A stretch of DNA of 61,047 nt. Source: an uncultured Clostridia bacterium (GTDB lineage: Bacteria; Bacillota; DTU014). Positions 58,940 through 61,047 of this stretch are shown piece by piece; position 1 is the first letter of the stretch, and every line of letters starts with the position of its first letter. A model generated the notes under the pieces. It was not told the origin of the DNA, ran no database searches, and was given only the letters and a program-made list of their open reading frames with translations. The stretch spans positions 1-61,047 of the forward strand of contig FIZI01000032.1 in the NCBI GenBank assembly GCA_900016865.1, in the 5' to 3' direction. The position numbers were made by a program, and so were the translations under genes.

Positions 58940-59737
58940 ATGCATGTGGCAGCGATTGTGCCTGCTGCCGGTAGAGGGCGAAGGATGGGTATGGGTCAAA
59001 GCAAGGCGTTCCTGCCGCTTCAGGGAAAGCCTGTTTTGGCCCACACCCTACATGTCTTGGGCATGTGTGAGTCTATAGATGAGATAGTCGTAGCCGTTGG
59101 GGAGCAAGATCTCGACCTGTGCGGCCGTGAGCTGAGCAGTAGGGTGAATGCAGATCGTCTCCGGGTTGTTGCGGGTGGATCGACGCGGCAGGAGTCTGTC
59201 TGGAACTGCCTATTGGCTGCGAGTCCTGACGTTGATCTGTATCTGGTTCATGACGCTGTACGTCCCCTGGTTACACATCAGATTATCGAATCTGTCATAT
59301 CGCTCGCCAGCGAGACTGGTGCTGCGGTGGCTGCTGTTCCCTCAAAGGATACTGTCCGTCTTTCCCGCGACGGCAAATTTTTCTGTTCTACGCCGGAACG
59401 GTCTACTGTATGGATTATCCAAACACCTCAGGTTTTTTCCGCCGAACTACTCGTGAAGGCTCATGAGGCTGCGGCTCGGGATGGGTACGTCGGAACGGAC
59501 GATGCTGCTCTTGTAGAAAGACTGGGCGTACGAGTTGCGGTAGCATCAGGCAGTTACGAAAACATCAAGATCACAACCAGAGAGGACCTTGCACTCGTAG
59601 AGGCGATCCTAAAATTGCGAAAGGAAGATGAGAGTCGTGCTGGTGCGCGAAATGATGCAGGTCAACCCCGCCACAATCCATCCCTCCGCTACGCTGAGGG
59701 AAGCCGTAGCGACCATGCGGTCGGAGCGTCAGAGTAG
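58940..59737 (+). CDS. ispD: 2-C-methyl-D-erythritol 4-phosphate cytidylyltransferase IspD
   Basis: MEP-pathway enzyme making CDP-methylerythritol for isoprenoids. CTP-binding loop VPAAGRGRRMGMGQSKAFLP, then GGSTRQESVWNCL, LVHDAVRPLV and VGTDDAALVERLG, and the end motif YENIKITTREDLALVEAIL. The usual protein stops near 'LRKE'; here about 38 hydrophilic residues continue and overlap the next gene by about 100 bp. ispF is not adjacent. 265 aa; ATG after CGGAG. Confidence 0.94.
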   Translation: MHVAAIVPAAGRGRRMGMGQSKAFLPLQGKPVLAHTLHVLGMCESIDEIVVAVGEQDLDLCGRELSSRVNADRLRVVAGGSTRQESVWNCLLAASPDVDLYLVHDAVRPLVTHQIIESVISLASETGAAVAAVPSKDTVRLSRDGKFFCSTPERSTVWIIQTPQVFSAELLVKAHEAAARDGYVGTDDAALVERLGVRVAVASGSYENIKITTREDLALVEAILKLRKEDESRAGARNDAGQPRHNPSLRYAEGSRSDHAVGASE

Positions 59738-60404
59738 GCTTGTCGTCTGCGATGGAGGCGAGATCGTCGGAATCCTAGTGGACAGTGACATCCTAAGAGC
59801 TGATGATTTGGATCGCCTGGTCAGAGACGTCATGACCACGAGTTTCCGCAAAGTCTGTCCAAACACGACGATTCGTGAGGCCGGCAATCTCATGATCGAC
59901 AACGACGTGGGCGGCTTGCCTGTGGTCACTTCAGACGGTGCTCTTGTCGGATTGCTGACTGCCAGGGATATACTTAGGGGATATCTCAGGGAAGAGAAGA
60001 CGCGTGTGTCTGTTGAGAGCGGCGCAATATACCTGGCAATGACTAGAAGCCGTGAGTACGAACATTACTGGCTGGATAGGCTCCAAGGATTCGGGTACAA
60101 GGCTGCTGTCACTCAAGTGGGAACCAGCGCGGAGTTGCTGGCGCTCAAGCTCCGCGAGAGCATGATAGCTGCGTCAGTGGCTCGGGGAGTGGTGCAGGAG
60201 GTGTCTCGTGAGAAAATCGCCCTTTCAAATGCAGTTAGAGACGCCTACGCACAGCTTGCTATGAGCAACCCGGGGCTTGGCGGAGGCTTTAAGTTGGCGG
60301 CAGTCAGAGGCGACGGCCGGATTTCTGTTGCAATATTCGGACGATTTGGCCATGCACTTGTTGATGGTCCCGAGCAGTTGGCTGTAGGGTACAGTGTGAT
60401 CTGA
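59637..60404 (+). CDS. CBS-domain pair fused to a HutP-like domain
   Basis: Two CBS domains (REMMQVNPATIHPSATLREA..., LVRDVMTTSFRKVCPNTTIR...) fill residues 1-120; such pairs bind adenosyl ligands such as AMP, ATP, SAM or c-di-AMP. The remaining 130 residues align by eye with Bacillus HutP: GYKAAVTQVGTSAELLALKL, a helical LRESMIAASVARGVVQE, then FKLAAVRGDGRISVAIFGRF and the end LAVGYSVI. The HutP metal-binding His residues are replaced (ESHALYH becomes EKIALSN; His138 becomes Pro or neighbour). GTG 59637 has AAGGAAG at 9 nt; ATG 59628 is in frame. It overlaps ispD. A ligand-sensing RNA-binding role is speculative. Confidence 0.75.
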   Translation: MLVREMMQVNPATIHPSATLREAVATMRSERQSRLVVCDGGEIVGILVDSDILRADDLDRLVRDVMTTSFRKVCPNTTIREAGNLMIDNDVGGLPVVTSDGALVGLLTARDILRGYLREEKTRVSVESGAIYLAMTRSREYEHYWLDRLQGFGYKAAVTQVGTSAELLALKLRESMIAASVARGVVQEVSREKIALSNAVRDAYAQLAMSNPGLGGGFKLAAVRGDGRISVAIFGRFGHALVDGPEQLAVGYSVI

Positions 60405-60428: not shown

Positions 60429-60764
60429 TTGAAGGCATTGTTTCATAAGGTAAGCGCGTTTATTCCAGGCCTCGGCCAGGCGCTGAGAGGCAGGCGTTTG
60501 AGGGGATTGGTTTTTTTCCTTGCTACAATACCACCCTTGGCCGTGGCTGCGTTGTTTTATTGCATGCACATGTACCAGCCTGCGATCGTCGCTTTTGGCC
60601 CTATTGACGAGCATCTGAGGAGGCTCGGTTCAATACGGTTGAGGTACGTGCTTGCAACTGTGCCGTCCTTAACTGTCTGGATAGCCAGCGTAGTCGACTG
60701 CTGGTTCGCAGACAGAGGCGGCGCTGCAACTGAGTCTCGGGTAATGGGCATACTCCATGATTGA
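60429..60764 (+). CDS. Small two-helix membrane protein
   Basis: 111 aa with SAFIPGLGQALRGRRLRGLV at the N-terminus, a pattern of small PGLGQ/TM2-like membrane proteins, then two hydrophobic segments (about 27-47 and 73-92). TTG start with GGAGG at about 10 nt. Function unknown. Lies between the CBS-HutP gene and a murA-like gene, same strand, so likely one transcript. Confidence 0.65.
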   Translation: MKALFHKVSAFIPGLGQALRGRRLRGLVFFLATIPPLAVAALFYCMHMYQPAIVAFGPIDEHLRRLGSIRLRYVLATVPSLTVWIASVVDCWFADRGGAATESRVMGILHD

Positions 60765-60796
60765 GATGCCCGAACCTAGGCGCGGGAGGCTTGTTT

Positions 60797-61047
60797 GTGG
60801 CTAAGCTTGTAATAGAAGGCAGAACACGCTTGAGTGGAGAATACTACCTAAGCGGCTCAAAGAACAGTAGCCTGTCTACAATGGTTGCAGCGGCACTGTC
60901 AGACGATACTGTGATTCTAGACAATATTCCGGCAAACACAGATGTCTTGACGCTTGCACGAATACTCCAAGACCTCGGTGTGGATGTACGCAGATTGGGC
61001 GAGAACACCTATGAGATTAGCGGCCGCGAGATTTCAGTTCCAATCGC
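60797..61047 (+). CDS. murA: UDP-GlcNAc 1-carboxyvinyltransferase-like, 5' part
   Basis: First enzyme of peptidoglycan precursor synthesis (EPSP synthase fold). The N-terminus reads VAKLVIEGRTRLSGEYYLSG, then SKNSSLSTMVAAALSDDTVI and LDNIPANTDVLTLARILQDL with LGVDV. Serine replaces the usual GAKNAAL alanines (here GSKNSSL), so it may be a second MurA-type paralog. GTG start with GGGAGG at 7 nt. The catalytic Cys loop lies beyond the window end; 83 codons are present. Confidence 0.8.
   Translation, partial: MAKLVIEGRTRLSGEYYLSGSKNSSLSTMVAAALSDDTVILDNIPANTDVLTLARILQDLGVDVRRLGENTYEISGREISVPI

Follow-up and report, generated by a model that had tools for sequence, protein, structure and literature searches.

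The window, by which we mean the whole 61,047-nucleotide stretch of DNA analysed here, carries near its 3′ end a gene whose product joins a pair of CBS repeats to a HutP-like domain (hereafter CBS-HutP). The features of this region are listed below, with residues numbered from the ATG at 59628.

58940-59737, + strand: ispD, the conserved upstream neighbour (Pfam IspD, E=4e-65; synteny)
59637-60404, + strand: CBS-CBS-HutP gene, 255 aa from GTG (ORF list, Pfam, start from relatives)
59637-59993, + strand: CBS pair (Bateman module), residues 4-122 (Pfam CBS, E=2e-28; Foldseek)
59778-59789, + strand: position of the CBS1 ribose motif, V51-D-S-D54 (alignment; T/S-x-x-D in most relatives, V here)
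59958-59969, + strand: CBS2 ribose motif, T111-A-R-D114 (alignment)
60015-60401, + strand: HutP-fold domain, residues 130-258 (PF09021; AlphaFold and Foldseek to 1VEA; 77% mean family identity)
60216-60218, + strand: I197, counterpart of HutP H73 (alignments)
60228-60230, + strand: N201, counterpart of HutP H77 (alignments)
60369-60371, + strand: P248, counterpart of HutP H138 (alignments)
60761-61047, + strand: 5′ part of a murA-like gene that runs off the window (cluster membership, synteny)

The CBS-HutP reading frame (59628/59637-60404) is stop-free throughout, as the preliminary description of this DNA had reported, and could begin either at ATG 59628, giving 258 aa, or at GTG 59637, giving 255 aa. 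The GTG is the better supported start: the closest relative opens with MLVREMM, which corresponds to VLVREMM in the window. The 3′ end of ispD and the start of CBS-HutP overlap by ~100 nt (59637-59737) in different frames, and overlaps of 26-83 nt between the two genes are seen again in relatives. Between CBS-HutP and murA, the window also encodes a small predicted protein of 111 aa (60429-60764) for which Pfam returned no confident match; only the window and its closest relative have a short extra ORF at this place.

HutP is usually regarded as a narrow histidine-specific antiterminator. It forms a hexamer and requires both L-histidine and Mg2+ for binding to clusters of NAG repeats (PMC7430163). 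By both profile and fold, the CBS-HutP protein belongs to the HutP domain family. PF09021 matches residues 130-254 along profile positions 2-124 of 128 with 94.4 bits (cut-off 25; E=8e-27), while the Pfam CBS match of the same ORF, in two stretches, reaches 98.9 bits (E=2e-28). An AlphaFold model of the isolated HutP domain, built from an input of 52 aligned HutP-type domains, was obtained with a pLDDT of 91.7 and a pTM of 0.87, and its eight best PDB matches in Foldseek are all HutP, led by 1VEA (E=5e-9, TM 0.82) and then 4OK9, 1WPV, 1WMQ and 4H4L; the first match after these eight is much weaker (E=5.8e-3). Fold comparison thereby recovered HutP where sequence-only searches of PDB chains, using the HutP part and profiles of two histidine-less clades, did not. 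The preliminary description had suggested that the C-terminal part follows HutP over its full length and had named profile and structure comparison as the check; both comparisons match, and the lack of any HutP match, which it had named as counter-evidence, did not occur. Similarity to Bacillus HutP (PF09021; 1VEA, 1WMQ, 1WPV, 4OK9) extends to the whole-domain fold, the profile, the same C-terminal end and equivalents of G130, A131, G135, E139 and G144, whereas the fused CBS pair, the missing metal histidines, the loss of several further residues and the absence of a hut operon set CBS-HutP apart.

We confirmed the B. subtilis HutP sequence against PDB chains and anchored the register of the histidine alignment with canonical HutP from a hut operon (L127) and with a stand-alone clade in which all three metal histidines are retained (L120-L123, L125; see below). 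The metal ligands of HutP, which we take to be H73, H77 and H138, are replaced in the window protein by I197, N201 and P248, and this pattern is common to its 43 aligned relatives, where the first position is I, M, S or L, the second is N in 38/43, and the third is P in 38, T in 4 and H in 1. The earlier impression that the residues binding Mg2+ and L-histidine had been replaced therefore holds across the family. Nor does CBS-HutP retain counterparts of E55, T56, T99, T128 and E137, presumably the positions through which HutP contacts UAG/NAG RNA, and the counterpart of R88 is also lost in the alignment. The same presumed contact residues are lost in a stand-alone HutP-like clade linked to aro and trp genes, and mostly lost in the three-histidine clade. 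Having tested the metal site, the operon and the contact residues and found none of them as in HutP, we conclude that CBS-HutP does not belong to the histidine-dependent hut antiterminators. With these contact residues gone, the protein may have ceased to bind RNA; working like HutP, as a ligand-gated RNA binder, is a possible mode of action.

A motif scan of GTDB species genomes recovered 45 CBS-HutP loci, all in Bacillota, with carriers in Natroniella, Orenia, Halanaerobacter, Halonatronum, Halanaerobium, Candidatus Frackibacter and many uncultured genomes; in a phylum-wide sample of 398 genomes, ~35 have the fusion. CBS-fused HutP domains form one clade in a HutP-domain tree (support 99/97), comprising Halanaerobiales and uncultured Bacillota. 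In nearly every locus with callable neighbours, the gene lies directly 3′ of ispD or ispD-ispF and 5′ of either murA, in the family branch that includes the window, or gltX, in the others, and the wider cluster reads clpC-radA-(disA)-carD-yacL-ispD...cysS-thyX-rlmB-sigH. The survey of such proteins and their neighbours that had been recommended at the outset thus returns a single clade at a fixed ispD locus. A stray fusion or an assembly artefact can be rejected, since dozens of genomes show the identical architecture at the identical place. In ~20 loci, including L038, L040, L051, L055 and L057, a conserved protein of ~132 aa is encoded on the opposite strand between disA/radA and carD. Our searches of an open-access collection of papers turned up no account of CBS-HutP proteins, which by that measure are an undescribed, conserved bacterial family.

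The search also recovered other branches of the HutP fold, along with the canonical HutP of L127 as a positive control. A second stand-alone clade of ~138 aa, without the metal histidines, lies directly before an aroH-like chorismate mutase gene or trp genes in many Bacillota (L131:4998-5468; L132:5097-5516; L133:5119-5541; L134:5254-5670; L135:5007-5423), and the window's own genome encodes one on another contig (L044:8879-9409). This clade looks like an undescribed aro/trp regulator. It shares the fold family and the histidine loss with CBS-HutP and is nearer to it by profile than Bacillus HutP is (E=1e-11 vs 1e-4), but it has no CBS pair and occupies another locus. A third clade keeps all three metal histidines, and its neighbours are not hut genes but genes for transporters, CoA-transferases or nitrogenase (L120:4388-4843; L121:4347-4838; L122:4212-4709; L123:4123-4590; L125:3720-4187); L126, near this clade, has lost them.

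The CBS pair retains the features expected of a nucleotide sensor to differing degrees in its two repeats. The [T/S]-x-x-D ribose motif of CBS2 is canonical in the window and nearly invariant among the 43 relatives (T/S in 43/43, D in 42/43), while that of CBS1 has T/S in 34/43 and D in 43/43 and reads V-x-x-D in the window. Foldseek places the AMP/ADP/ATP-binding AcuB among the nearest structures of the CBS part, and Methanosarcina SriA/SriB/SriD ribosome complexes are also among its matches. A nucleotide in place of the amino-acid signal is plausible, because the ribose motifs are kept.

The two parts of the protein are under very different constraint. Mean pairwise identity within the family is 77% for the HutP domain (minimum 62%) versus 42% for the CBS part, in which the ribose motifs are nevertheless conserved in both repeats, and the corresponding dN values against the closest relative are 0.048 and 0.158; synonymous sites are saturated, so these values are given without dN/dS. 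In the same loci, and for nearly every pair, conservation of the HutP domain exceeds that of IspD/F, YacL, RadA, CarD, DisA, GltX, CysS, RlmB, ThyX, SigH and ClpC; for SigH this holds in 385/435 pairs compared. As the locus scan itself used HutP-domain motifs, we repeated the measurement on an independent, HMM-found set of 30 proteins, some of which lack the scan motifs, and again obtained 77%; motif-picking bias was therefore rejected as the source of the high conservation. A partner or ligand site that does not vary would account for this constraint, and we infer it to be a better fit than a drifting, co-evolving mRNA leader because the HutP domain is so highly identical and exceeds all tested operon neighbours.

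Comparison of the intervals between CBS-HutP and gltX/murA, which range from ~10 nt (a ribosome-binding site only) to >100 nt, revealed no shared RNA element, and a conserved cis RNA target beside the gene was accordingly rejected. An Rfam search of the window gave no match. In 4/6 relatives examined, Rfam identified T-boxes between gltX and cysE/cysS, which indicates that cysE/cysS are already regulated. The idea of a nucleotide-responsive RNA regulator, advanced in the preliminary description, consequently stands in part: a CBS pair with ribose motifs is there, the HutP RNA-contact residues are lost, and the search for a local RNA target was negative. A role for CBS-HutP as an RNA regulator is therefore putative.

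The domain make-up, the fold, the histidine loss, the ribose motifs, the single clade, the fixed locus and the extreme conservation of the HutP domain lead us to favour, with about an even chance of being right, a nucleotide-gated HutP-fold factor that acts on an invariant RNA or ribonucleoprotein. Here the CBS pair would stand in for the L-histidine/Mg2+ switch of a HutP-superfamily regulator, binding an adenosyl nucleotide that signals energy or adenylate status, with AMP/ADP/ATP the likeliest ligands. It would gate a putative oligomer of the HutP-fold domain, which may in turn bind an RNA or ribonucleoprotein partner that is nearly unchanged between species. A more specific version, in which the factor is adenylate-gated and serves a universal target in Bacillota such as the ribosome, tRNA or a transcription complex, is possible but doubtful.

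Archaea offer examples of CBS modules attached to RNA- or ribosome-binding parts, and these precedents, together with the Sri complexes among the Foldseek matches, support the favoured reading. The archaeal ribosome hibernation factors HibA, with four CBS repeats and an HPF/RaiA domain, and Dri, with two CBS modules, show this arrangement, and HibA binds AMP > ADP > ATP, with a Kd of 12 uM for AMP (PMC13324472). CBS-HutP resembles them in attaching a CBS module to a part that is putatively RNA- or ribosome-binding, but the likeness is one of analogy only, since the effector domains are not homologous and HibA and Dri are archaeal. The reading is weakened in that AMP and ATP had no clear effect on the binding of HibA to the ribosome (PMC13324472), that the presumed RNA-contact residues of HutP are lost, that the gene has no conserved RNA element next to it, and that the whole-protein AlphaFold model (pTM 0.54) gives a domain arrangement of low confidence.

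Among the alternatives, the one that survives best, although we consider it rather unlikely, is that the HutP-fold domain no longer binds RNA but is a protein- or metabolite-binding oligomerisation domain through which the CBS pair regulates IspD/IspF, GltX or another protein. The loss of the HutP RNA-contact residues and the fixed place beside ispD/ispDF would be consistent with such a function, for which DarB, whose CBS pair regulates Rel and can act through protein contacts alone (PMC9848473), provides a model. However, the obvious clients are far less conserved in the same loci (identity of 0.43 for IspD and 0.54 for GltX) than the HutP domain (about 0.78), and the 3′ gene alternates between gltX and murA.

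An antiterminator controlled by c-di-AMP and acting on mRNA leaders, as originally proposed from the nearness of disA, seems improbable to us. In its favour, c-di-AMP is bound by some CBS pairs, DAC-domain proteins are encoded in 16/17 CBS-HutP carriers tested, and disA, in the window as in most loci, belongs to the cluster that holds the fusion. Against this, seven clusters that retain CBS-HutP have no disA (most of their genomes encode another DAC protein), and the one carrier without a DAC domain, G253, is 90% complete. Given that disA is a standing member of the old clpC-radA-disA-carD-yacL-ispD cluster, we rejected its proximity as evidence for c-di-AMP. The model of the c-di-AMP receptor CbpB (NF041630) scores 24.8 bits, far below its cut-off of 125, and DarB/CbpB, while sharing the CBS pair, lack an effector domain. 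Position 35, opposite the c-di-AMP-stacking Y45 of DarB, is a non-aromatic I/N/Q/T in one weak alignment, with a second method giving a different register. The leaders that such an antiterminator would need are likewise not apparent, as no conserved one lies nearby and cysE/cysS are already under T-box control in the relatives noted above.

CBS-HutP is not tied to histidine catabolism: no hut genes were found in CBS-HutP clusters, and urocanase occurs in 19/34 carriers. Histidine is an unlikely signal, because 15/34 carriers in all, the window's genome among them, lack urocanase. A HutP that still responds to histidine or metal through displaced ligands, such as H242 (invariant in 43/43 relatives) or D205 at the position of HutP E81, is very improbable, with all three metal ligands replaced and urocanase missing from 14 carriers besides the window's genome.

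Taken as a whole, the HutP fold appears to define a superfamily of several branches, and the histidine/metal site is retained in only some of these. The CBS-HutP branch combines a nucleotide-sensor (CBS) fusion with a constant position amid housekeeping genes, and its HutP domain surpasses the neighbouring ClpC and SigH in conservation; so strong a constraint on a protein that has gone unstudied argues for a partner that is both important and invariant. Being small and found in culturable Halanaerobiales, the protein is directly testable. If the more specific version of the favoured reading is true, an adenylate-gated factor with a universal RNA or ribonucleoprotein target would be a bacterial counterpart, in logic, of the CBS-containing hibernation factors of archaea, and the HutP fold would have gained a new use.
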